64,000 nucleotides of DNA, from positions 43,798-107,797 of the forward strand of contig JAGDVP010000008.1 of NCBI GenBank assembly GCA_023255735.1, written 5' to 3'. Each line of letters begins with the position of its first letter. Positions within the stretch are counted from its first letter, which is position 1. This document shows positions 1,708 through 52,808 of the stretch, piece after piece. The stretch is from Halothiobacillus sp. GTDB taxonomy: Bacteria; Pseudomonadota; Gammaproteobacteria; Halothiobacillales; Halothiobacillaceae. Under the pieces are notes generated by a model. It was not told the DNA's origin. It ran no database searches and worked only from the letters and a program-made list of their open reading frames with translations. The position numbers were made by a program, and so were the translations under genes.

Positions 1708-2850
1708 CTATTGCCTCAGCAGTTTTTCGTACAGTGCTATTGTTTCAACCGCCATGCGCTCTAAGTTAAAATGCGCCAAGGCTCGCACTTTACCAGCCGC
1801 ACCTAATCGCCGAGCGAGATCCGTGGAATTAATTATTTGGTTCAGCGCATCGGCCAATGCATCCCTATCACCCGGCTGCACAGTCAATGCGCACAAATCA
1901 TGAGGCGCGACGTCATTCACTCCGGTGCCCAAATCCGTATTGACAATGGGTTTACTGCATAACATCGCCTCGGTCTGAACAATACCAAACGCTTCGGTTG
2001 TCGCCACCGAGGGTAGGCAGAACATATCGCAGGCATGGTAGTAAACGGGTAGTTCCTTGTCAGGAATTGAGCCTGCGAACACCACCTGACCAACCGATTC
2101 AGTCGAAAGCCGTTCGGCTAATTGTTTCAACTCCGATGTCAATGACCCTTCACCCCCAAGTATGAGCACCGCTGGCACTCGCCTCATGGCATGAATCAAC
2201 ACGTCAAAACCCTTGTAGTACACATGCCGCCCCAGCGCGAACACGATAGGCCGCCCCGCATATTGAGCACGAAGCTTGTTAACCTGCTCAGTGACTCCGG
2301 GTGTTAACTCGAAGGCTGCAGGATCAATGCCGTATGGAATGACATAACGGTGTGCCGAATCGGCAAAGATATCAATCTGGGGGGATGCCGTATGCGTCTT
2401 TGTGGCTCCGATCACCGCATCGGGCTTGCGCAAAAACCGTGGTGCCAGCCATCGATAAATCGAGCCTAAAAAACGCTGTTTCACAATATCGCTGTGCCAA
2501 CTCACCACAAAGTTAGGCCGACCGGCAATAAAACGAGCAACAAGATGCGCAAAGGGGTCGGGCCAATGCTGGTGTACCACATCGAAAGGATTTTGCTTGG
2601 CCAATTGCCGCGCTCGCAGCATCAACCCAAGAGCAAGCGGCTGGCTAGAAAAACGCGCTTGTACATAAACAGGCTCAATTTGCACCCCATCGACACGGCG
2701 CGGTTTTGAATTTGCATCCAAGGTGTAGGCCAAAACAGTCACCTCCGCGCCCTGCGCCGCCTGCGCCCGCGCGAGTGCCTCAACATGCCGCTCAATACCT
2801 CCGGTACGCTCAAAAGCAAATTTACCGAAGTGCAGAACACGAATACTCAT
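1708..2850 (-). CDS. Glycosyltransferase family 4
   Basis: 380 aa, GT4 features: GGIERHVEALARA, ALGRHVYYKGFDVLIHAM, SVATTEAFGIVQTEAM. Confidence 0.9.
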   Translation of the reverse strand: MSIRVLHFGKFAFERTGGIERHVEALARAQAAQGAEVTVLAYTLDANSKPRRVDGVQIEPVYVQARFSSQPLALGLMLRARQLAKQNPFDVVHQHWPDPFAHLVARFIAGRPNFVVSWHSDIVKQRFLGSIYRWLAPRFLRKPDAVIGATKTHTASPQIDIFADSAHRYVIPYGIDPAAFELTPGVTEQVNKLRAQYAGRPIVFALGRHVYYKGFDVLIHAMRRVPAVLILGGEGSLTSELKQLAERLSTESVGQVVFAGSIPDKELPVYYHACDMFCLPSVATTEAFGIVQTEAMLCSKPIVNTDLGTGVNDVAPHDLCALTVQPGDRDALADALNQIINSTDLARRLGAAGKVRALAHFNLERMAVETIALYEKLLRQ

Positions 2851-2859
2851 GCCTTCACC

Positions 2860-4050
2860 TTAACCAAGCTGCTTGTATACAGCCATTGTTTGCTCTGCGC
2901 ATTTAGCCCAAGTAAATGCCTTAGCGCGATCGAAGCCAAGCTGGATATGCCGAGATCTCAATGCAGCATCATCCAAGAGGTTCAGAAGCGCATAGCGAAT
3001 TTCATCCACCGACAGTGGATTTACCTCAATAGCAGCGCCTGCGGAAACTTCTGGCATTGAGGTGACATTTGAAGTGAGTACCGGTGTGCCACTCGCAAAC
3101 CCTTCCAAGACGGGCAAACCGAAGCCTTCATAAATTGAGGGATAAACGAATACTGCTGCTGAAGCATACAAATCCAAAATTTGGGCACGGGGCAAGTACC
3201 CCGTCCGAATCACCTCACCTCGCAGCTCCATGTGTTGAATCTGACGTTGCAGATCAGAGTCCTTCCACCCCCCGCCCCCGGCCAGTACCAAGGGATACGC
3301 AAGACGGACACCTTCTGGCAGAGCACTATAAGCGGCCAGTAATCGCTCTAGGTTTTTCCTCGGCTCCAAAGTGCCAACCGATAAAACAAAACCACGATAG
3401 CTCAAATTAAATCGACGCAGAGTATCGAAGGTTTCAATCTCAGATCGAGGATGAAACGCCATATCCGTTCCAAGATGGGTGACGACAATTTTTTCACTGG
3501 AAACAGAAAACACGTCCAGAATCTCATCCCTCACAAAAGCGGAGACCGTCACGATGAAATCCGCACGATCAACAGCCAACTTCAAATGTCGGTTCATGAA
3601 CGCCACCCGCTCAGGAGGATGAAACTCTGAATAGCGAATGTGAGATAAATCATGGATAGTAATAACCATCTTCCCGGAATATTTAATCGGAATATAATTC
3701 GGCTCGTGGTAAATAAAGCCAGATTGTCCATAGTGTTTTAGTGCCTTCGATACCTGCCACTCACGAAACATGTGTCGCAAAGGATAAACACTGGGAATCG
3801 AGCGCACTATTTTTTTAAGCTCATTTTTTGCGAATAATGTCTTACTTGGTGTTGTCGCAGGCAGCGGAATTTCACGCACCCCAGACAACCAAGTGAGCAA
3901 CTGCTCATCTTGCATAACATGCCGCCCCAAAAAACCAGCCATATCAACCACATCTTGGAGCTTAACTAAGGCGTTAACTAAATGTTGAGTATAAAAACCG
4001 ATCCCAGTCCGCGCACCGACCATGGATTGCAGATTGAATAATAATTTCAC
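2860..4050 (-). CDS. Glycosyltransferase family 4
   Basis: 396 aa; VGTLEPRKNLERLLAAY and PSIYEGFGLPVLEGFASGTPV (EX7E). Confidence 0.92.
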   Translation of the reverse strand: MKLLFNLQSMVGARTGIGFYTQHLVNALVKLQDVVDMAGFLGRHVMQDEQLLTWLSGVREIPLPATTPSKTLFAKNELKKIVRSIPSVYPLRHMFREWQVSKALKHYGQSGFIYHEPNYIPIKYSGKMVITIHDLSHIRYSEFHPPERVAFMNRHLKLAVDRADFIVTVSAFVRDEILDVFSVSSEKIVVTHLGTDMAFHPRSEIETFDTLRRFNLSYRGFVLSVGTLEPRKNLERLLAAYSALPEGVRLAYPLVLAGGGGWKDSDLQRQIQHMELRGEVIRTGYLPRAQILDLYASAAVFVYPSIYEGFGLPVLEGFASGTPVLTSNVTSMPEVSAGAAIEVNPLSVDEIRYALLNLLDDAALRSRHIQLGFDRAKAFTWAKCAEQTMAVYKQLG

Positions 4051-4997: not shown

Positions 4998-6038
<1,041 letters not shown>

Positions 6039-6073: not shown

Positions 6074-9000
6074 TTAACTTGCTGTCTGATCAGAAATCCA
6101 AGTTTTGTAGGCTGGGCTTTTATTTAAAATAGCGTTCAGCACTTGGGTGGCGCTATCATTCCATGTTTGATGCGGCATAGCAGCACTGCTCGGATGTTGG
6201 TTCTGCTCAAAAAGGGCTAACCAATCCTGTACCGCCGTGGCTATTACCTCGGGCTCGCGGCTGTCTGCAAAGAAATAAGCCTGATTAGCGGTTACTTCAC
6301 GGAATACTGGAATATCGCGTACCAGCAGGGGCAACCCATGATGGGCGGCCTCAATCAGGGGCAAGCCAAAACCTTCTCCATGGCTTGCCGCGATCAGGCA
6401 ATTGGCATGCGCGTACATCTGCTCCAAATATTCGTCGCTAATGCCTTCTAACCAAAATAAGCGACTATCTCGCTCAGGATGCACACGAAGTAGCTCGACA
6501 AGGGACTCGACCATCCAGCCTTGTTTGCCAACAATGACCAAGTTAGTATCAATTCCTTGTTGCCAAAGCAGATCGAAGGCGTGCAGGGTTTGCAGATAGC
6601 CTTTGCGCGGCTCGATGGTGCCTACCATAAGAAAAGTGGGGCGCGCTTTGAGTGTTGCTAAGGTTTTTGGCGCATCGCTGGGCAGGCCGCGTGAGGGGGC
6701 GCTGTTATCAATATCCGCACCGTGATGAAACCAATGCAGATGAAATGGACGCTCACGCTTCTCGCCAAACACTTGTAACCACTCATGAAACTCATCGGCT
6801 ACATGGCGGGATACGCAAAAAACGCCATCGAACTTTGAGATGGTTTGCAGCCAGCGTTGATGACCTTCGCGTGATCCTTCTGGAAATACTTCGGGCATGG
6901 TAACGGGGAGCAGATCATGCACCACAAAATAGCAGCGTACTCCGCGCAGGCGCCATGTCTGGAGCGTCCCTTCTTGTGCAACAACTATTCCCTGCGCTAA
7001 ATCCAAGCCTAAGTAGATGTCACCCTGCCATGCCTCGACCGGGGTATCTCCCGTCCAATCGTCAGGAATATTCAAAAACCGGCTCATAAATTTGCGCGCA
7101 TAGCGGAAACCGGGCTGATCGCTCGTGGCATAGACGGGCTCAACCGCCCATCCATTTGCCTCGCCCAAAGTAATTTCTCGCAACAAGGCGCGGGTAACGC
7201 GTTGTATTCCGGTGCCTAAATCGACGTTAACTAACTCAGAAACATCCAGCAGCAGTTGTGGTTTACGTGGTTTGGGCGGGCAATTGGCCGCCAATGTGTG
7301 GGTAAATGGGAAGAGCTCGCTCGGTGCAAGTGCGGGTGTGAGGTGGGGTAGTGCTTGGGTTATGCCTTGCACGCCTAAATTGGCTTTGATGTAGGCCGCC
7401 TCAATCGCAGCGGCATATTGATCGGCACAATGGCGTGGGTTGTGGTGCTTGCGAATATGCGCGAGTGCACGCGCGCCCAGCGCCGTGCGGTGCGGCGCAT
7501 CTTGCCACAGGCGGTGCAAAGCCTCGATGAGTTGCGCGTCGCTAAATTCATCGGGTAGTAGGCACACGGCATCGGCTGGCAAATCAGCCATCGAGCCGTT
7601 GGCGTTGACGATGGTAGGCAGGCCGTAGTTCATACAATCCAGCACCGTGCCCGAGGTTTCGCCGCGCGAAAGGGTGCGCAGTTGTACTCCCGCATCGGCA
7701 GCGGCAAGCCAAGTGCGGTACGTGCTCACATCCGCCCAGCCGGTAATAGTGATGCGGTCTTTGGCCGGGCTTTGGGCGATTTTGCGCAAAAGCGCCTGCC
7801 CGTAGTCTCCGCCGTGATTTTCACCCACGAACACCAAGCGGCAGTTTGCATCCTTGGCAAGCGGTGAGGCTAACCATGCATCGAGCAGGCGGTGGTTCAA
7901 TTTGGTAGGGCCGAGCCCCCCAAAACTGCACACGACGAAATCCGTTTCTGCCAACTCCAGTTGTTGGCGGGCTACGGCCTTGCCATCTTGCTCGGCTGGT
8001 TGGCGCAAGTGAGGAATCAAGGCCCAATCATCCGCAGCATGTGCTCCGTAGAACTGTTGCGCGAGCCGGCGCGAAAAGTCGGAGTGAACAATAATGCCTA
8101 AGGCATGTCGAAGGACGGATAAGTTACACGGCCAAGCCCAAACAACGGCCGTATCTGAGGCAGTGTAGCGATCCTTTACGGCCTGCCAGCCATGACTTGC
8201 CAATAGGGTGTTTGGCAAGAAATCTGTGACCCCTTTGGAATCCATATACCACACGATGCCCGAAAGGAAAAAATCATGCAGCACGACAATTCCGGGAATT
8301 TCTTCCAGAAGGCCGAACATATAGGCGTGAAACTCAGAATTACCAAAATGATAAATCACCCGGTCAAACTGGTTGGAATGGGTGCGGAACCAAGTTACAT
8401 CGCGTATCGGCGCATTGGCCTGCACCCAGGCATCCTCAACCCGTTCTTGCGCCACAATAACGGTAATCTCGTAGTGCCGCGCCAGCTCGGGCAACAGCTC
8501 GGCGGCATAATCGGCAATGCCGGTTTTCTCGGGCGGCAGGGGGGATACAAACGCCAAGCGGGGGCGTTTGGGTAGCGGTAGGGTAATCGCGGGTTTTTGA
8601 TATTCGCGGTGAAGCGCCTCTAAGGCGTTCCAGGCGCGTTGGGCACTGGCTTGCCAAGAGAATATTTTGGCCTGTGCCAAGCCGTGGCGCTCCAGCTCTT
8701 GGCGAAATGCGGGGTTGCCCAAAACCTCGGCCATTTTGGTGGCCATGGCGGCATCATCACGCGGGGCAAATAGAGCATCTGCCCGCCCCAGCACTTCGGG
8801 CAGGCTTGAACTGTTGGCGGCAATCACCGCCTTGCCGCAGGCCATGGCCTCAAGCACCGGCAGGCCAAAGCCTTCGTGCCAGGAGGGGAAAACAAACAGG
8901 GTGCAAGCGTTGTAGAGAGCCAGCAAATCATCTTCAGGAACATACCCCGTTAAAACAAGTTCATCCCCACCAAGACCTTGGTTTTTAGCGAGACTTAACA

Positions 9001-9826
9001 GTCGATCACGATCTAGCTCCTGAATTGCGCAAACTACGACAAGTTGGTTTGTTAAGCGCAGTGGCTTAGGAAGGATTGCAAAAGCACGTATTAAGCCCTC
9101 AATATTTTTGCGGTGGTCAATCCCGCCTGTGTACATAATAAATGGGCGATTAATTCCATAATCACTCTTAAGGCGTGCATGCTCTCCTTCTGTCAAGTCG
9201 ATAGGATGAAATTGGACATCACAAGCCGTGGAAATGTTAGTTACTGCTCGCTCAGGAAAATTTAAGTGTTCTTTTGCCTCGCGACCAGAGGACTCAGAAA
9301 TAGAAAGTAGAAGATCAGCGCGTTTTAAGTGATCGAGCTTGCCTAAATACCAGCGCTCCATCGCTGGATTTGGTTCAAGGTATGCTTGGCGATGAATCAA
9401 CGGGATGAGGTCGTAGAGTACTACTGCGGTAGGAATGGCATTTTGCAAGCTATGCACACTGGTTACCGCGCCCTCCCCATTCCATTCCTCAAAGAGTGAG
9501 GGGATAAAAATCACATCCGGCTCGAAACTGGCATAAAACGCCTCAACCATCAGCTCGGCCGCTTTGCGGCGGGCGTCGTTGTCGGCAACGTGCCCGCCCA
9601 CGGGGCCGGCTACGTCAAATACCCGAATCGCGTCAAAGGGCAGCAGCTCGGCAAAGGCGGCGCGTATCGGCTCGATAGTGTCGGCATAGGCGGCGTTCAG
9701 CACGAGCAGTAGTTCATGTTCACCGCGCTGGCGAGCCATTTCTTGCACCAGCGCCAAGGTGTAGCGGCCAATACGGCGAAACCGGCTCGCGGTTTGCGCG
9801 CCTTGCATGTCAATGACGATGCGCAT
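6074..9826 (-). CDS. Large multidomain glycosyltransferase with three tandem GT4-like modules
   Basis: 1250 aa; module 1 GGIDHRKNIEGLIRAF...PSWHEGFGLPVLEAMACG; module 2 RPRLAFVSPLPPEKTGIADYAAELLPEL...LSRGETSGTVLDCMNYGLP; module 3 VGTIEPRKGYLQTLHAF...ASHGEGFGLPLIEAAHHG. Confidence 0.9.
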   Translation of the reverse strand: MRIVIDMQGAQTASRFRRIGRYTLALVQEMARQRGEHELLLVLNAAYADTIEPIRAAFAELLPFDAIRVFDVAGPVGGHVADNDARRKAAELMVEAFYASFEPDVIFIPSLFEEWNGEGAVTSVHSLQNAIPTAVVLYDLIPLIHRQAYLEPNPAMERWYLGKLDHLKRADLLLSISESSGREAKEHLNFPERAVTNISTACDVQFHPIDLTEGEHARLKSDYGINRPFIMYTGGIDHRKNIEGLIRAFAILPKPLRLTNQLVVVCAIQELDRDRLLSLAKNQGLGGDELVLTGYVPEDDLLALYNACTLFVFPSWHEGFGLPVLEAMACGKAVIAANSSSLPEVLGRADALFAPRDDAAMATKMAEVLGNPAFRQELERHGLAQAKIFSWQASAQRAWNALEALHREYQKPAITLPLPKRPRLAFVSPLPPEKTGIADYAAELLPELARHYEITVIVAQERVEDAWVQANAPIRDVTWFRTHSNQFDRVIYHFGNSEFHAYMFGLLEEIPGIVVLHDFFLSGIVWYMDSKGVTDFLPNTLLASHGWQAVKDRYTASDTAVVWAWPCNLSVLRHALGIIVHSDFSRRLAQQFYGAHAADDWALIPHLRQPAEQDGKAVARQQLELAETDFVVCSFGGLGPTKLNHRLLDAWLASPLAKDANCRLVFVGENHGGDYGQALLRKIAQSPAKDRITITGWADVSTYRTWLAAADAGVQLRTLSRGETSGTVLDCMNYGLPTIVNANGSMADLPADAVCLLPDEFSDAQLIEALHRLWQDAPHRTALGARALAHIRKHHNPRHCADQYAAAIEAAYIKANLGVQGITQALPHLTPALAPSELFPFTHTLAANCPPKPRKPQLLLDVSELVNVDLGTGIQRVTRALLREITLGEANGWAVEPVYATSDQPGFRYARKFMSRFLNIPDDWTGDTPVEAWQGDIYLGLDLAQGIVVAQEGTLQTWRLRGVRCYFVVHDLLPVTMPEVFPEGSREGHQRWLQTISKFDGVFCVSRHVADEFHEWLQVFGEKRERPFHLHWFHHGADIDNSAPSRGLPSDAPKTLATLKARPTFLMVGTIEPRKGYLQTLHAFDLLWQQGIDTNLVIVGKQGWMVESLVELLRVHPERDSRLFWLEGISDEYLEQMYAHANCLIAASHGEGFGLPLIEAAHHGLPLLVRDIPVFREVTANQAYFFADSREPEVIATAVQDWLALFEQNQHPSSAAMPHQTWNDSATQVLNAILNKSPAYKTWISDQTAS

Positions 9827-11043
9827 TAACGCTCCTCCTTGTTATGTTGCATCATTGCGTTGCTCAATCGAGCATGAATTTGCTGCGCATATTGGCCTAG
9901 ATTAGATAATTGCTTGGATTGATCGATCTTGGGGCTTAAATTTGTTTTGATATAAAAATTTCTTAATCTGGGGTACAACCCTAACCGATAAACGATGGAT
10001 TTCAGCCAATTCTTCAATCTGGGGCGATTATTTATTACCGAAAACATGCGGCGTAAGATTTTTTTAATCAACGCCTTAAACCGCGCTTTAAAGCCTTCGT
10101 TGGGCAAGCGCCGCAATTGTAGGTTAAACCAACGTAGTGGTTTGGTTAACCGCCAGGATCGGCTGGCGTACACACCCATTAATTGACCATGAAATTGATC
10201 GGCCTTAACTCCAGCGTCAATCGCCTTAGCTTCAGCGTCAACACTCTTCGCCAAAGCCGCATGGCATAACGACTCTAGCGCCGAAAAGCGCTGCGCAATG
10301 GAAGAATCGAAGCGTATTGCCAAATTATAATGATCCAGCCCGATGTTGCGTTCAAATTCAGAATCGAACAAACCAAGCGCAGACTTGCGCCCCGGTTTTT
10401 GGGCCACAATCGAATAATCGGGGCTAACTCCAGATAACACATCCAATAAACCGATATCCCTGCGCGTCTGCAGTTCTTCTGGCTCTTGCAGTCGCACAAT
10501 TTTGGTGCGATAAAACCCGACATACTCCGGTAAATAAGACAGCAATAAGGGTGGGATTGGGCGCTGATGCGTGGGGTCAAGGTAGAAGTTGGTCGCGCCC
10601 ACGGTTAGGTTTTCGGGGTTTGGGGTTTCTAAAATTAAAAGCCCACCCGGCTTGAGCACCCGAAAGGCCTCGTGCACCAACGTTCGCAAGGTCTCGAACG
10701 GAATATGCTCCACCACATGAAAGGCCGATACCACAGCGAGGCTATCATCGGCGCAGGCATTAAGTGCCGCAATGGCATCTTGATTTGTGGCAGGCAAACC
10801 AAGCTCATAGCAGGCCGCCAACATACCATCATCTAAATCGACCCCGCGTGCGGCAAAGCCCTGCTCCGTTAAAAGCTCAAGCCACTCGCCTCGACCGCAG
10901 CCTAAATCCAGCGCCTCAGGCTCAGGGTACAGCGTCAATAAAGGCTGCAAAAAAGACAAATAAGCCATCAAACGGCTTTTGATCAGCGCCCGTGAGCCAC
11001 GATGCTTATCTTCAAAGGCCCGATAAAAATCAGAATCTCTCAT
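9826..11043 (-). CDS. Class I SAM-dependent methyltransferase with C-terminal extension
   Basis: LDLGCGRGEWLELL, SAFHVVEHIPFETL, LKPGGLLILETPNPEN; C-terminal MGVYASRSWRLTKPLRW motif; stop/start overlap (TAATG) with the downstream glycosyltransferase. Confidence 0.88.
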   Translation of the reverse strand: MRDSDFYRAFEDKHRGSRALIKSRLMAYLSFLQPLLTLYPEPEALDLGCGRGEWLELLTEQGFAARGVDLDDGMLAACYELGLPATNQDAIAALNACADDSLAVVSAFHVVEHIPFETLRTLVHEAFRVLKPGGLLILETPNPENLTVGATNFYLDPTHQRPIPPLLLSYLPEYVGFYRTKIVRLQEPEELQTRRDIGLLDVLSGVSPDYSIVAQKPGRKSALGLFDSEFERNIGLDHYNLAIRFDSSIAQRFSALESLCHAALAKSVDAEAKAIDAGVKADQFHGQLMGVYASRSWRLTKPLRWFNLQLRRLPNEGFKARFKALIKKILRRMFSVINNRPRLKNWLKSIVYRLGLYPRLRNFYIKTNLSPKIDQSKQLSNLGQYAQQIHARLSNAMMQHNKEER

Positions 11044-11076
11044 AAATTACCCATAAGAAGTTTAAGTAACCCAAAA

Positions 11077-11461
11077 TCAGTGTTCGCTGTAAAACCGACA
11101 ATCGGGTGGTGCAATCGCCAAAATCGATGACGCTTGCGTCGGCGAAGTTAGAGAGACTGTACCGCTGGTGCACAAGCCATTGAAGCTAAAAATAATGGGA
11201 TTTTTCACTTCAATGACCCAATTGGCGCGCAAATTGGGCAGCAACTGCGGTACCGTGCTTTTTGATAGCGTAAACCCCCGCCCCTCGCTATAAGCGCGCA
11301 ATGATAACGAATTAAGGGATTAATTGGTGTTAATCCAGTCATAGGCTGCCATCACGGCAATGCCAATCAACGACTATGGCTTCAAGCAAGCCAAAGCCGC
11401 CGTGCCGCTTATGCAACCCGCTGTGGCGCGGGGTATTTGCTGCAAAATAAGGCGCCGGCAT
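11077..11461 (-). pseudogene. Remnant of a type IV pilin/pseudopilin-like gene (prepilin N-terminal motif, frameshifted and stop-containing)
   Basis: Minus strand from ATG at 11461: MPAPYFAANTPRHSGLHKRHGGFGLLEAIVV, then a frame change gives LIGIAVMAAYDWINTN*SLNSLSLRAYSEGRGFTL...; the 74-aa ORF 11077..11301 is its 3' part. Confidence 0.55.
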
Positions 11462-11467
11462 GTGGGG

Positions 11468-12892
11468 CTAACCTTGAATGATTTGGGCAATTTTTTGGGT
11501 GTGGCTTGCGCATCGCCCCTCGGAATGTCGCGATTCAACATTCAACCGCAATAACGGCTCGGTGTTGGAGCCCCGCAAATTAAACCGCCAATCGTCAAAC
11601 GCTAGGCTTATGCCATCGGTGCGATCAATTTTTGGGTTTTGATTGGCAAAATGCGCCAACACGCGCTCAATGGTGCCCGGCACGTCATCAACCCGGTAAT
11701 TGATTTCACCACTGCAGGGGTAGGCGGCCATGCGCTCATCCACCAGTTCCGCCAGTGTTTTACCGGTTTTGCTCATCAACTCTGCAATAAGTAGCCAAGG
11801 GATCATGCCCGAATCACAGTAGGCAAAATCGCGGAAGTAGTGATGTGCGCTCATCTCGCCGCCGTAAATGGCATCTTGCTCGCGCATGATTTGCTTGATG
11901 AAGGCGTGGCCGGTTTTCGATTGAATGGGGATGCCACCCGCTTGCGTAACTTGCTCGATGGTGTTCCAGGTAAGGCGCGGGTCATGGATGATTTTGCCGC
12001 CCGGGTGTTTGGCTAGCAGGGTTTGTGCCAATAACCCGACTAGGTAATAACCTTCGATAAAGCGGCCTGTGTGGTCGAAGAAAAAGCAGCGGTCAAAATC
12101 GCCATCCCATGCGATACCGATATCCGCGCCCTGCTCGATAACCGCTTTTGATGTGGCCGCGCGCATTTCGGGTAATAAAGGGTTGGGTACGCCGTGGGGG
12201 AAGTTGCCATCCGGTTGTTCATGGATGTAATGAATATCGAACGGTAGGTTTTTTTCCAGCATCCGCATAACAAGCCCTGCGCCGCCATTGCCCGGATCGG
12301 CGACAATTTTGAGCGGTTTAAGGCTGCGGTGGTCGATATAGCTGAATAGGTGTTCGATGTAAGCGGTTTTATCTGTGTCAAGCGTGATGCGGGCATTTGA
12401 GCTGGCTGTGCTCGCCCCCCCGCCCCAGCCCTCCCCCACCCGGGGGGAGGGGGTTAACTCTGTATCACTGGCTTTGTGGGCGGCAAAGTGTAAAGCGACA
12501 CGATCTCGAATGGCGAACAGGCCGGTATCGCCACTGATGGGGCGTGCGCCTGCACGCACGACCTTCATGCCGTTGTAGCCTTTGGGGTTGTGGCTGGCGG
12601 TGATCATAATGCCACCGCCCACGCCATCTGCTTCGCGATGGAAGGTTTGAAAATAAACTTCTTCGGTGCCGCACAGGCCTATGTTGATGACATTGGCGCC
12701 AGCTTGAGCAAGACCCCGCATGAGGGCTTCGGCCAGCATTGGGCTCTCTAAACGAACATCAAACCCCACGACTACGGTACCGGGGTTAATTTCATCCACA
12801 AACGCCCGCCCAATTTGATAGGCGAGTTCAGCATTCAGTTGTGCTGGCACTTGGCCGCGAATGTCGTAGGCTTTAAAGCAACTCAAATCCAT
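11468..12892 (-). CDS. manB: Phosphomannomutase/phosphoglucomutase (start reassigned from 12934 to 12892, MDLSCFKAYDIRG)
   Basis: MDLSCFKAYDIRGQVPAQLN, GGIMITASHNPKGYNGMKVV, GIAWDGDFDRCFFFD, GEMSAHHYFRDFAYCDSGMIP, RGSNTEPLLRLNVE. Confidence 0.95.
   Translation of the reverse strand: MDLSCFKAYDIRGQVPAQLNAELAYQIGRAFVDEINPGTVVVGFDVRLESPMLAEALMRGLAQAGANVINIGLCGTEEVYFQTFHREADGVGGGIMITASHNPKGYNGMKVVRAGARPISGDTGLFAIRDRVALHFAAHKASDTELTPSPRVGEGWGGGASTASSNARITLDTDKTAYIEHLFSYIDHRSLKPLKIVADPGNGGAGLVMRMLEKNLPFDIHYIHEQPDGNFPHGVPNPLLPEMRAATSKAVIEQGADIGIAWDGDFDRCFFFDHTGRFIEGYYLVGLLAQTLLAKHPGGKIIHDPRLTWNTIEQVTQAGGIPIQSKTGHAFIKQIMREQDAIYGGEMSAHHYFRDFAYCDSGMIPWLLIAELMSKTGKTLAELVDERMAAYPCSGEINYRVDDVPGTIERVLAHFANQNPKIDRTDGISLAFDDWRFNLRGSNTEPLLRLNVESRHSEGRCASHTQKIAQIIQG
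12414..12459. repeat. G/C-rich palindromic repeat inserted in frame within manB
   Basis: 'ccccccgccccagccctcccccacccggggggagggggttaac' shares the 15-mer CCCCAGCCCTCCCCC with the repeat at 59-73 and encodes LTPSPRVGEGWGGGA on the minus strand. Confidence 0.75.
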
Positions 12893-12893
12893 A

Positions 12894-14345
12894 TCAAGAA
12901 CGCCCATAGTTGTCTTGCGCGCGAACAATGTCATCTTCGCCTAGGTAGTCGCCGCTTTGCACTTCGATCATGACCAAATTGAGTACGCCGGGATTTTCTA
13001 GGCGGTGCATGTGGCCTGCGGGAATGAAGGTGGATTCGTTCGTGTTGAGTAAAAACACCTTGTCGCCATTGGTGACGCGCGCCATGCCATTCACCACAAT
13101 CCAGTGTTCGCTGCGGTGGTGATGCATTTGCAAGGAAAGCGTGGCACCGGGTTTAACTTCGATCCGCTTCATCTTGAAGCGCTCGCCTTCTTCGAGCACG
13201 GTGTACGTACCCCAAGGGCGGTGCACGGTTTGATGCAGCAGATGGCTTTCGTGGCCGCGTTGTTTGAGTTCGGCTACCACCTCGCGCACATCTTGGGCAT
13301 GATCTTTGTGCGCGATTAATAACGCATCGGGCGTATCTATGATAATTAAATCATCAACCCCTACCGTGGCGGTGAGCCGGTGCGGGCTGCGCACAAGACA
13401 ATTGTGCGTTTTAATGGCAATCACTTCGCCATCAAGGACATTGCCATTGGCATCAGCCGGTACGGTTTGTGCTACGGCGGGCCATGAGCCAATATCAGAC
13501 CAGCCCATATCGGAGGGCACAACGGCGACGCGCTCGGCGTGCTCCATGATGGCGTAATCGATCGAAATATCGGCCATGCGCTCAAAGTCTTCAGGCGAAA
13601 ATTCCACCATATCCATGCCGGCTACGTGCATTTGCTTGGCATGCGCAACGGCCGCCTGGCAGGCAATAAGCAATTGCGGCGCATAGCGTTCAAATTCGGC
13701 GAGTATCTGGCTTGCTTTGAAGCAGAACATGCCGCCGTTCCAAAAATATCGTCCAGAATCAAGGTAGGTTTGAGCCACTTGGCGATCGGGCTTTTCGACA
13801 AATTTTTGCACACGATAAACCGCGCCGCCTTCGGTGTTAAGAAGGTCGGCCGCTCGCTCGATATAACCAAAGCCTGTTTCTGGTGTTTTAGGCTCGATGC
13901 CAAAAGTAACCAGCCAGCCTTGCCGCGCAGTGATGGCCGCCGTGTGAACTGCTTGCGTAAAAGCCGATTGATTCTCAATGAGGTGATCGGCCGGCAAAAC
14001 CAACATCAGCGCATCAGCACTGGTTCGTGCTTGCAAATCTAGTGCGGCCAACGCAATAGCCGCTGCGGTGTTTTTCCCTACGGGTTCTAGTAATAACCGG
14101 GGTAGATTGATTTTGGAAGCATGCAGCGCATCAGCGGTAATAAATCGCAAAGACTCATTGGTGATGACAGTGAGGGGGGCAATATCCGGTAATTGACTCA
14201 CGCGGCTAACCGTTTTATCAAACAGCGTTTCGCCATCCATTAACGGCATAAATGGCTTAGGAAACGTCTGGCGAGAGGCCGGCCACAAACGGGTACCCGC
14301 GCCACCACTCAAAATAAACGGATAAATCATGAAAATAGCACCCAT
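12894..14345 (-). CDS. manC: Bifunctional mannose-1-phosphate guanylyltransferase/mannose-6-phosphate isomerase
   Basis: PFILSGGAGTRLWPASRQTFPKPFMPL; FVEKPD; C-terminal cupin HRPWGTYTVLEEGERFKMKRIEVKPGATLSLQMHHHRSEHWIVVNG. Confidence 0.96.
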   Translation of the reverse strand: MGAIFMIYPFILSGGAGTRLWPASRQTFPKPFMPLMDGETLFDKTVSRVSQLPDIAPLTVITNESLRFITADALHASKINLPRLLLEPVGKNTAAAIALAALDLQARTSADALMLVLPADHLIENQSAFTQAVHTAAITARQGWLVTFGIEPKTPETGFGYIERAADLLNTEGGAVYRVQKFVEKPDRQVAQTYLDSGRYFWNGGMFCFKASQILAEFERYAPQLLIACQAAVAHAKQMHVAGMDMVEFSPEDFERMADISIDYAIMEHAERVAVVPSDMGWSDIGSWPAVAQTVPADANGNVLDGEVIAIKTHNCLVRSPHRLTATVGVDDLIIIDTPDALLIAHKDHAQDVREVVAELKQRGHESHLLHQTVHRPWGTYTVLEEGERFKMKRIEVKPGATLSLQMHHHRSEHWIVVNGMARVTNGDKVFLLNTNESTFIPAGHMHRLENPGVLNLVMIEVQSGDYLGEDDIVRAQDNYGRS

Positions 14346-48174: not shown

Positions 48175-50136
48175 ATGCGCTTGCCCGTTAATATTTTTCT
48201 GTGGACTTTTGGCGCCACCCTCTTGCCCGTTCTGGCCTTGGTGTGGGGGGTTACGGCCTTTAGTGAGCATCGCTTTCAGGCCGAAGTCAATCGAGAAATC
48301 GGCGATAACATCCAAGCACTCACCGGTGAAATTAATAACCGCCTGCGCTACGAGCGCGAAGTGCTGCGGGGCATCGCCCACGCCCAACCCATTCAAACCA
48401 TGCTCAATGTGCTCACCGCATCAGCGCAAGGCATTCGCCACCCCGATTTAACCTCCGATCGCATTCGCGCCAATTCATTTCTCGCCGGCCTGCAGCGCAC
48501 CGTGCCGGGCTTGGGCAGTATTCGCATACTCGATGCGGCGGGCAATACCGTGGTTAAAACCACACTGGGGCGCGCCGCCTCGCCCATGTTCCCCAGTTTA
48601 AGCCAAGTCAATTATGTGGAAGAAGAACTGGAAAATCCGGCCTTTTTACAGCAGCTTAAAAATTTACCCATGGACGAGGTGAGTTTTGTCATGCTGCCCG
48701 CCTCGCTTTGGGATGCCGCGCCCGACCAATACCCCAGCATGCTTTACGGCGTGTATCCGCTTAGAAATTTTGGCAGCGAGCGCGCGGGGTATGTGGTGCT
48801 GAACACCTATGGCGAGTACCTTGATCAAATTTTAACGCTGTCACCCAAGCCCCGCGGCAGCCATGTGATGGTGATCGAGCACGACCCCGGCAACGCCCAG
48901 CGCGATGGCCTGATTTTATATAACGATCAAACCAACCGCGCGTTTACCACACCAATGGAAGCCAACCCGCAAACCCCGCCCACCTACGCACAAGCACTGG
49001 ATAAAGGCGCGTTTTGGCAATCGGCGGTGGCCCAATCCGATGGCCTGTATTTATCCCGCAGCGGCAAAACCCGAATCTATTTTCAAGAATATCACCCCTA
49101 TCCCAATAGCCTCGTTTCTTGGTTTATCAGCCTAAGGGTGCCCGCCAACGTCACCTCAGCGCCGTATGAAGATATTCATCAAAGCTTATGGGGGTTTACC
49201 GTGCTGGCTTTGGGCATGAGCTTGCTCTTGGCCGGCCTAGGCGCGCGCTACTTTTCCCGCCCCATTGTTCGCTTAGGGCGCAGCCTCAAACTATTTGCCG
49301 ATGGCAATCGCGAACACAGCATTCCGGTTGATTCGCGCACGACCGAAGTGCGCCAGCTTCAGCAATCTTTTTATTACTTAACCGAGCACTTAACCTTTGA
49401 GGCTCAAAAGCGGCAAGCGGCTGAACGCCAAATGCTGCAACAAGCCAAACTCGCCTCCATTGGCGAAATGGCCGCCGGCATTGGCCACGAAATTAACAAC
49501 CCCCTAAACAACATCCTCACCTTAACCCGCTTAATTGAGCGCCAAACATTGCCGGAGCAAACCCTGCTTCGCACCGATATTGAGGATTTACGCACCGAGG
49601 CACTAAGGGTCGGGCATATCGTGCGCGGCGTCATGAATTTTGCCCGCCAGCTGCCGCCGGAGCATCAGCCCACCGACACGGGCCCTTGGCTGTGTGAGCT
49701 CATCGATCGCCTGCAACCCGAAGCCATTGAAGCCGATGTGCATCTCAATTTGAACTTAAGCGACCCGCCGTGCAGCGCCAGCTTCGACCCCAACCAAATC
49801 GGCCAAGTGGTGATTAACCTCGTGCGCAATGCCATTCACGCCTCCCCCGCCGAAGGCACCATCACCATTCAAACCGAGTGCCAGCCCGAACATTTTCTTG
49901 TTATCGTGCAAGATGAAGGTTTGGGGATTGAAGCCAGCGCGCGCGATAAAATTTTCGACCCATTTTTCACCACCAAACCCGTCGACAAGGGCACCGGTTT
50001 AGGTTTATCCATAAGCCTTGGCATCGTGCAGTATCATGGCGGAAAATTAAGCGTCGAAAACCGTACCGACCGCACCGGCGTGCGCGCGATCTTGCAATTA
50101 CCGCGCGAGAAATCCACCCCGCGCGTGGGCGATTAA
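48175..50136 (+). CDS. NtrB-type sensor histidine kinase with extracytoplasmic sensor domain and HAMP
   Basis: [33 protein letters not shown] (H box), [21 protein letters not shown] (N box), [20 protein letters not shown] (G box). Confidence 0.95.
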
Positions 50137-50192: not shown

Positions 50193-51572
50193 ATGAGCCA
50201 AACCCCCACCATCGCCTTTGTCGATGACGACCCCCGCGCCAGCGAACTCTTTGCGCGTTTTGCCAAAACCGAAGGGCTGAACGTTCACGGATTCCAATCG
50301 GTAAGCGCCGCACAGACTTGGCTTGAAAAAAATGCCGCCGATTTAATTATTTCCGACCTTAAAATGCCCGGATTATCGGGGCTAGAATTTTTGCAATGGG
50401 TGCGCAACCGCGACCAAGCCATCCCCTTCGTGCTCATCACCGGCTTTTCAACGCTCGATAACGCCATTGATGCCCTGCGCTTGGGCGCCAATGATTTCAT
50501 CAAAAAACCCTACGATATTGATGAACTCGTGCAACTCGCCCACCGCATGCTGCGCCCAGATGCCGCCGCGCAAGAACCCGACCCCAACACGATGAGCCGC
50601 GCCATGCTGGGCAATTCGCCCGCCATTGCCGGGGTTTATCGCATCATCGATAAAATCCGCGACGTGCGCATTAACGTCATGATCGAAGGCGAATCGGGCA
50701 GCGGCAAAGAGCTCGCCGCCCGCGCCATTCACGATCGCTCTGATTTCGCAGCCATGCCCTACATCGTCATCGACTGCGGCGCGCTCACCGATACCCTGCT
50801 TGAAAATGAACTTTTTGGCCACGAAAAAGGCGCTTACACCGGCGCATCCAGCACCAAACAAGGTTTGCTCGAAGTCGCCAGTGGCGGCACCGTATTCTTA
50901 GATGAAATCGGCAATATCTCCGATGCCATGCAAGTTAAATTACTGCGCGTGATCCAAGAGCAACAAATCACCCGCGTCGGCGGCGTTACCCCCATTAAAA
51001 TTGACGTACGCTTCATCGTCGCCAGCAACCGCGATTTAGCGCAAATGGTGAGCGAAGGCAGCTTCCGCCACGATTTATACCACCGCCTGCACGTCGTGCG
51101 CCTGCGCATTCCGCCCTTGCGTGAACGCCGCGAAGACATCCCCGTATTAATTGACCACTTCATCCGCCATTTTGCCTCGCGCTACAACCGCCCCGCCGAA
51201 CGATTCGAGGCCGGCTGCCTTGAGCGCATCGAACACTACCCCTGGCCGGGCAACATCCGTGAACTCAAAAACATGATCGAACGCGCCGTGGCGCTCTCAA
51301 GCGGGCCTGAAATAAGGCTCGATTCAGAATCGCAAACCACGCCACCCTGGGCCACCCCGCGCACCAAGGCACGCCAAGCAGACACGCCAGACACCCTAGC
51401 GGGCGACTACCCCACGCTCGAGGTGCTCGAGCGGCGCTACATCGAAAAACTGCTCAAAGAATACGAAGGCAACCGCGAAAAAACCGCGCAAACGCTCGGC
51501 ATCAACAAATCCACCTTGTGGCGCAAACTGCAAGGCTATGATCAATCCTTATCAGACGACCTACTCCCTTAA
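50193..51572 (+). CDS. Sigma54-dependent response regulator (NtrC family: REC-AAA+-Fis HTH)
   Basis: IAFVDDDPRASELFARFAK, EGESGSGKELAARAIHDRS, ELFGHEKGAYTGASSTKQGLLEVASGGTVFLDEIG, WPGNIRELKNMIERAV, C-terminal REKTAQTLGINKSTLWRKL. Confidence 0.97.
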   Translation: MSQTPTIAFVDDDPRASELFARFAKTEGLNVHGFQSVSAAQTWLEKNAADLIISDLKMPGLSGLEFLQWVRNRDQAIPFVLITGFSTLDNAIDALRLGANDFIKKPYDIDELVQLAHRMLRPDAAAQEPDPNTMSRAMLGNSPAIAGVYRIIDKIRDVRINVMIEGESGSGKELAARAIHDRSDFAAMPYIVIDCGALTDTLLENELFGHEKGAYTGASSTKQGLLEVASGGTVFLDEIGNISDAMQVKLLRVIQEQQITRVGGVTPIKIDVRFIVASNRDLAQMVSEGSFRHDLYHRLHVVRLRIPPLRERREDIPVLIDHFIRHFASRYNRPAERFEAGCLERIEHYPWPGNIRELKNMIERAVALSSGPEIRLDSESQTTPPWATPRTKARQADTPDTLAGDYPTLEVLERRYIEKLLKEYEGNREKTAQTLGINKSTLWRKLQGYDQSLSDDLLP

Positions 51573-51677: not shown

Positions 51678-51717
51678 GCAAATTGCCGTACAAAAATTGC
51701 AGTTTGCAATTTGCAAT
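51678..51717. promoter_or_regulatory. Candidate enhancer/UAS region for the sigma54 activator
   Basis: Palindrome GCAAATTGC (51678-51686), inverted repeat ATTGCAgttTGCAAT (51696-51710) and a second tandem TTGCAAT (51711-51717). Confidence 0.5.
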
Positions 51718-51764
51718 GTGGCGAATGACTCACCCAAAAATTGAAAAAACAACAGGTTAAAAGT

Positions 51765-51780
51765 TGGCACAGGCTATGCA
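51765..51780 (+). promoter_or_regulatory. Sigma54 (-24/-12) promoter of soxYZ
   Basis: TGGCACAGGCTATGCA; the GG and GC dinucleotides have the correct 10-nt spacing, about 46 nt upstream of the soxY ATG. Confidence 0.75.
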
Positions 51781-51826
51781 ATAGGGTAAACGTGGTCTTC
51801 CACGCAACATTGAGGAGTTCAGATCT

Positions 51827-52297
51827 ATGCAATCTAATCGTCGTGTATTTTTAAAAGGCAGCATGGCTGCCAGTGCTGTTGGCTTGGCTATTGGTGCCGG
51901 CCTTTTAACCCCACGTGCAGTCATGGCTGCGGCATGGCCCCAAGCGGCTTACGATGCCAAAGGCTTCGATGATGCTCTGAAAGGCATTTTCGGCGTTTCA
52001 GGTGCCACTGAGTCTAAAGACATCACCGTGAAAGCCCCTGACATCGCGGAAAACGGCGCCGTGGTTCCTGTCACCGTTGAGTCTGCGGTTGCCGGCACCG
52101 ACAACATCGCAATCATGGTAAAAGGCAATCCAAATCCTTTGGTTTGTAACTTCAAATTCGATGGCGCTCAGCCCTTCTTGTCTACCCGTATCCGTATGGG
52201 CAAAACAGACAACGTGATCGGGGTTGCCCACGCTGGCGGCAAACTGTACATGGCTGAGAAGCAAGTTAAAGTCACCATCGGCGGCTGCGGCGGCTAA
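51827..52297 (+). CDS. soxY: Thiosulfate oxidation carrier protein SoxY
   Basis: Tat-type leader SNRRVFLKGSMAASAVG; C-terminal swinging-arm motif VTIGGCGG. Confidence 0.96.
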   Translation: MQSNRRVFLKGSMAASAVGLAIGAGLLTPRAVMAAAWPQAAYDAKGFDDALKGIFGVSGATESKDITVKAPDIAENGAVVPVTVESAVAGTDNIAIMVKGNPNPLVCNFKFDGAQPFLSTRIRMGKTDNVIGVAHAGGKLYMAEKQVKVTIGGCGG

Positions 52298-52354: not shown

Positions 52355-52660
52355 ATGTCATCAATCAAAATGCGTATTAGCGCCGCTGGCGACGTTCTGG
52401 ATGTTAAAAGCCTGATTGAGCAGGTTATGGAATCTGGTCGGATGAAGGACAAGGCAACGGGTCAATTGATTCCTGCCAACTACATTCAAACATTGACTGT
52501 CGCTGTGAACGACAAAGTCATGGTTGAAGCCAACTTGTCTGTCGCGGTTTCTAAAAACCCCTACATCAACGTGAAAGTTCCTGGCAAAAAAGGCGATAAA
52601 GTCACCATCGCTTACACCACGAACGAAGGCAAAACCGACACCCAAACCGAAACAGCCTAA
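52355..52660 (+). CDS. soxZ: Thiosulfate oxidation carrier complex protein SoxZ
   Basis: MSSIKMRISAAGDVLDVKSLIEQVMESGRMKDKATGQLIPANYIQ; directly after soxY. Confidence 0.96.
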   Translation: MSSIKMRISAAGDVLDVKSLIEQVMESGRMKDKATGQLIPANYIQTLTVAVNDKVMVEANLSVAVSKNPYINVKVPGKKGDKVTIAYTTNEGKTDTQTETA

Positions 52661-52703: not shown

Positions 52704-52733
52704 TAAAAAAACCCGCATCACTGCGGGTTTTTT
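52704..52733 (+). terminator. Rho-independent terminator after soxZ
   Basis: AAAAAAACCCGCA-TCAC-TGCGGGTTTTTTG. Confidence 0.85.
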
Positions 52734-52808
52734 GTTGCGCGCAGGCGAGGTTAATTTCAAGCATCCCTCGTAGACCCACGCCTCAAACGGCCTACGCTGG
52801 GGCATGTT

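Follow-up and report, generated by a model that had tools for sequence, protein, structure and literature searches.

A predicted sigma54-dependent promoter ahead of soxYZ in Halothiobacillus and a proposed two-component switch distinct from TspS/TspR

Here, we analysed a 64,000-nt stretch of Halothiobacillus sp. DNA (hereafter, the window) and its counterparts in related genomes. Our analysis indicates that positions 51765-51780 are very probably the -24/-12 element of a sigma54 promoter which drives the two-gene soxYZ unit and is controlled by the kinase and response regulator encoded next to it, a pair that belongs to a lineage separate from the TspS/TspR system. The first-pass annotation had proposed sigma54 control of soxYZ through this adjacent pair, and comparative sequence evidence supports the proposal, namely, footprints that extend across the family and the class, a unique palindrome, IHF-like sites, and the presence in the genome of ihfA and of a single copy of rpoN. 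The elements of the locus are as follows.

48175..50136, + strand: sensor histidine kinase of 653 aa, with two membrane helices flanking a predicted double-Cache periplasmic sensor, followed by HAMP, HisKA and HATPase domains
50193..51572, + strand: sigma54-dependent response regulator of 459 aa, with REC, AAA+ (GAYTGA loop) and Fis-type HTH (HTH_8) domains
51678..51686, + strand: possible outer activator half-site GCAAATTGC, kept in part of the genus
51696..51717, + strand: candidate upstream activator sequence ATTGCAGTTTGCAATTTGCAAT, made up of TTGCA repeats in palindromic order with a 7-bp period, from phylogenetic footprinting
51747..51759, + strand: IHF-like site AAACAACAGGTTA, differing from WATCAANNNNTTR at one position, from family and class-wide comparison
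51765..51780, + strand: sigma54 promoter -24/-12 element TGGCACAGGCTATGCA, from sequence match and family conservation
51791..51804, + strand: predicted transcription start (51791) and hairpin CGTGG-TCTT-CCACG at the 5' end of the transcript, from the family alignment
51827..52297, + strand: soxY, thiosulfate carrier with a twin-arginine-type signal
52355..52660, + strand: soxZ
52708..52734, + strand: probable intrinsic terminator after soxZ, AAACCCGC-ATCACT-GCGGGTTTTTT, read directly from the sequence and unlisted by the terminator scan

In the mechanism that we envisage, the kinase would sense a periplasmic signal, presumably thiosulfate or another reduced sulfur compound, through its double-Cache domain and, as expected from its family, would phosphorylate the regulator. 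The regulator, in turn, would bind the TTGCA palindrome, which precedes the -24 box by about 50-70 bp, as the co-conservation of regulator and palindrome suggests, the DNA would be bent, probably by IHF, and the AAA+ domain would open RpoN-RNA polymerase at a +1 position near 51791.

The kinase-regulator pair and its candidate operator

Structure prediction (mean pLDDT 84) places a double-Cache domain between the membrane helices within residues 1-380 of the kinase, with 2p7j and 3lid as the best fold matches in the PDB and the DctB sensor ranking lower. The earlier label "NtrB-like" is inexact: besides a predicted double-Cache sensor, this membrane-bound kinase carries HAMP, HisKA and HATPase domains, and it is better described as DctB/AtoS/ZraS-like. 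The regulator itself had been described correctly as a sigma54-dependent response regulator with a GAYTGA loop, given its REC-AAA-HTH_8 architecture. The sigma54-contact loop reads GAYTGA throughout the genus of the window and GAFTGA in the other genera of the family (L059-L083), a single F to Y change specific to one lineage. In overall design, that is, a membrane kinase with a periplasmic sensor, a REC-AAA-Fis regulator and a sigma54 target promoter, the system resembles those of the NtrC/AtoC/ZraR/DctD type, but it scores far below their curated cut-offs and differs from them in its sulfur-oxidation target and its TTGCA site. The identity of the predicted target genes is clear, with soxY and soxZ scoring above the TIGR04488 and TIGR04490 equivalog cut-offs, respectively, and with SoxY ending in GGCGG.

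The family alignment defines a 22-bp palindrome, RTTGCAnnTTGCAAnnTGCAAY, at 51696-51717. In two genera, genome searches recover this palindrome about once per genome, at soxYZ, and reversed-pattern controls yielded zero matches in all genomes but one. In two other genera of the family (g3 and g4), the palindrome is degenerate and TTGCA-type half-sites remain. The IHF-like site at 51747-51759 coincides with a conserved CAAnnnnTTA block of the same alignment; the gap between it and the downstream -24 box is only about 7 bp, which is close for IHF. As judged by sequence and conservation, a candidate upstream activator site and a candidate bending site both accompany the predicted promoter.

The arrangement extends well beyond the family. 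Among the 369 genomes sampled for regulator orthologues, proteins with approximately 51-60% identity to the window regulator were detected in many other gammaproteobacterial families, and the kinase-regulator-soxYZ synteny recurs across many of these. A SoxY match was found downstream in 17 of 26 inspected regulator loci (tblastn), and a SoxY-like start precedes the contig end in four more. We compared 18 regulator-to-soxY regions from other families, a few of which share a family and so are not fully independent, with shuffled sequences. These regions contain 86 TTGCA/TGCAA sites (17 +/- 4.4 in the shuffles), and an IHF-like site is present, with no more than one mismatch, in 15 of them (4.05 +/- 1.6 in the shuffles).

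The TTGCA array goes with soxY, not with the regulator gene. In four members of the genus, the regulator and soxY are separated by other DNA, and both the array and the promoter remain beside soxY; in the two of these members that were read, the intervening DNA includes a zinc-ribbon metallopeptidase-like gene in the opposite orientation (L119, ~2244-3323; L120, ~2610-3683). Downstream of regulators without an adjacent soxY (L129, L140, L146, L126), no TTGCA array was found. The prediction that a soxY distant from the regulator should bring the array with it held in three of five genomes: G150 has two such soxY loci, one of them on the regulator's own contig at a distance of about 73 kb, both with array and promoter, and the same elements precede the soxY that stands apart from the regulator in G093 (L211) and G116 (L222). 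In the remaining two genomes, G163 and G370, which do have the regulator, the sole soxY detected belongs to a soxXYZ unit without the array, so that some members of the regulator clade must serve other targets. None of the eight soxXYZ loci checked is preceded by a TTGCA array; thus, the TTGCA rule applies to soxYZ units.

The regulatory scope in this genome seems to be narrow. The soxB (C8) and soxXA (C29) genes are located elsewhere in the genome (G000), and neither has a -24/-12 box or a TTGCA array; likewise, no -24/-12 element or TTGCA array was found ahead of soxB in the nine genus genomes in which its start was found. Judging from these sequences, the switch appears to serve soxYZ alone in this organism.

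Could a sigma54-dependent soxYZ promoter nevertheless respond to another enhancer-binding protein of the same genome? Six further strong sigma54-activator proteins are encoded there, and the binding of TTGCA by the adjacent regulator is something that we only infer. However, the TTGCA array, soxYZ and a regulator of the adjacent type co-occur across families, and the recognition helix of this regulator, INKSTLWRKL, is near-invariant in its clade and unlike those of the other regulators of the genome. We therefore consider a different activator unlikely and take the adjacent regulator to be the probable one.

The -24/-12 element ahead of soxY

In TGGCACAGGCTATGCA, GG occupies positions 51766-51767 and GC positions 51778-51779, 10 nt apart, and the end of the element is separated from the soxY ATG (51827) by 46 nt; both the exact spacing and the distance of about 46 nt had been given in the first-pass annotation, and both are accurate. 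The genome encodes RpoN along with an enhancer-binding protein containing a GAFTGA-type loop. By itself, the motif is not significant: TGGCACN6TGCA has one exact match in the window (51765-51780) and three in the 2,062,673-bp genome, to be compared with about four per genome expected by chance at 50% GC according to our own arithmetic. Furthermore, a position weight matrix built independently, from the promoters of other families, ranks the site only fifth among all window positions. One of the exact genomic matches, G000:C8:65850, sits between convergent genes and was taken as fortuitous.

These figures are what one would expect had the match before soxY arisen by chance, too, with transcription of soxYZ starting at a sigma70-type promoter or reading through from the regulator gene. 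Against this, an element starting 60 to 68 nt before the soxY ATG is in place in all 24 family genomes in which soxY was detected (of 27; the 24 span 4 genera), where the alignment shows it to be retained although the flanking DNA has diverged. An element scoring at least 9 of 12 is also present in 17 of the 18 regions from other families, compared with 1.05 +/- 0.97 in the shuffles, and the promoter scan detected no sigma70-type match between the regulator stop codon and soxY. It is because of this position and conservation, and not of the motif alone, that we judge TGGCACAGGCTATGCA to be real, and a chance match appears very improbable.

A hairpin can form exactly at the predicted start (+1) of the soxYZ transcript in almost every one of the 24 family genomes; its loop letters vary and its stem is retained, with GTGG/CCAC replaced by GTGT/ACAC in one genus; this covariation was judged by eye because MAFFT misplaced the loop gaps. 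The hairpin could be a stabiliser of the mRNA 5' end or a repressor site. As a class-wide feature it was rejected, given that a stem of at least 4 bp was found in only 6 of 17 cases (15% expected), so that the start-site hairpin is a feature of the family.

The same genome contains further apparent sigma54 sites. A second probable sigma54 sulfur module (L152, G000:C8:58000-76000; positions 6090-13955 of that locus) contains two pairs of SoxA-like/SoxX-like cytochromes, along with a sigma54 regulator whose receiver appears degenerate and two genes for SoxH-like metallohydrolases; its four transcription units have one -24/-12 element each, and a search for a common operator found no shared 8-mer. 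Another exact sigma54 consensus, TGGCACACCTCATGCA, lies on the minus strand of L154 (G000:C16:10000-20000) at positions 5720-5735, 73 nt ahead of an operon for a membrane protein and a cytochrome c that has no NCBIfam family match. Its flanks are like those of the soxY promoter, with GTTAAAAG before and ATGCAATA after the element, and a 5-bp hairpin then stands near the start.

Relationship to TspS/TspR and other systems

Acidithiobacillus caldus possesses a sigma54-dependent two-component system, TspS/TspR, upstream of its sox-II cluster (Li et al. 2017, as summarized in passages of PMC6335251 and PMC12194929), with thiosulfate proposed as the signal in the same passages and TGTCCCAAATGGGACA given as the TspR activator site in that of PMC6335251. 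In our sample, exact copies of TGTCCCAAATGGGACA occur in two genomes, both from the same family, where the site separates a sigma54 regulator from soxXYZA-x-soxB, the gene order published for TspSR. The likeness to the window is evident: a sigma54 two-component pair directly upstream of sox genes, a palindromic activator site and a -24/-12 promoter. The window shares the position of the pair upstream of sox genes with such a promoter, a likeness of arrangement only.

By contrast, the proteins and their sites set the two systems apart. The TspR-type regulators share 36-37% identity with the window regulator (299-304 bits), and the genomes that carry them encode, elsewhere, a homologue of the window regulator with 48-50% identity (419-421 bits). 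In the phylogenetic tree, TspR falls outside the window clade, and forcing it inside is rejected by the AU test (p = 0.0004), with long branches outside the clade calling for some caution in the tree placement. The recognition helix of TspR is ISRKQLRTKM, compared with INKSTLWRKL in the window clade. The TspR site, TGTCCCN4GGGACA, has its counterpart at soxYZ in TTGCA repeats; upstream of sox in G000 we found the TTGCA array instead, and the TGTCCC palindrome is absent from G000 and three further family members. TspS has about 500 aa and a short sensor, compared with 653 aa and a double-Cache sensor in the window kinase. Finally, TspSR drives soxXYZA-x-soxB, and the window system is predicted to drive soxYZ alone. 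Thus, despite the sigma54 pair upstream of sox genes, the activator site and the -24/-12 box that the window system has in common with TspSR as described in PMC6335251, we reject orthology: sequence identity, phylogeny, the AU test and the differences in binding site and in sensor make it scarcely credible that the window system is a TspS/TspR orthologue moved to a split sox locus. The comparison with acidithiobacilli made in the first-pass annotation holds only by analogy, since the TspR-type regulator beside soxXYZAB differs in lineage, binding site and sensor.

In the two Acidithiobacillus-like genomes G052 and G197 (L198 and L200), the closest homologue of the window regulator adjoins no sox genes; in L198, this homologue is paired with its own kinase, of a 699-aa type, before genes for a small exported protein and a porin-like protein.

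A neighbourhood of the same kind, with a sigma54 regulator and a histidine kinase beside soxYZ, appears in lucinid-symbiont Thiohalomonadales, in which soxB/soxAX occupy a separate locus, as in the gene map of PMC11237559. This regulator quite possibly belongs to the window clade. In the portion of that source dealing with the locus, the description is a remark on the gene map, and a promoter, an activator site, phylogeny and distribution do not figure in it.

Implications for sox regulation

To our knowledge, little is known of how thiosulfate oxidation is regulated in bacteria other than alphaproteobacteria and acidithiobacilli. Our search of the open literature turned up neither the TTGCA operator nor a description of this system in Halothiobacillus, the work of Li et al. 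2017 being known to us via reviews. Sigma54-dependent two-component control of sox is already known from Acidithiobacillus, and what appears to be new is a widespread, separate variant with a TTGCA operator. The title of the Li et al. study reportedly refers to "some chemolithotrophic bacteria", and the study may span more taxa than the reviews state.

On balance, we lean towards the view that sigma54 control was recruited to Sox at least twice. TspSR would represent one such case, in acidithiobacilli, and an unrelated double-Cache kinase and regulator with a TTGCA operator would be a main, widespread switch of SoxYZ across sulfur-oxidizing Gammaproteobacteria. In the organism studied here, this switch would uncouple the supply of the carrier from that of the SoxB and SoxXA enzymes, whose genes lie elsewhere and lack it.

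What emerges is a single defined switch, for which operator, promoter, start site and sensor domain have all been predicted and which is conserved across many sulfur-oxidizer families; these probably include the genus of the laboratory model Halothiobacillus neapolitanus. Regulation is predicted even where the regulator and soxYZ stand apart. Together, these observations suggest that the amount of SoxYZ is adjusted separately from that of the Sox enzymes.
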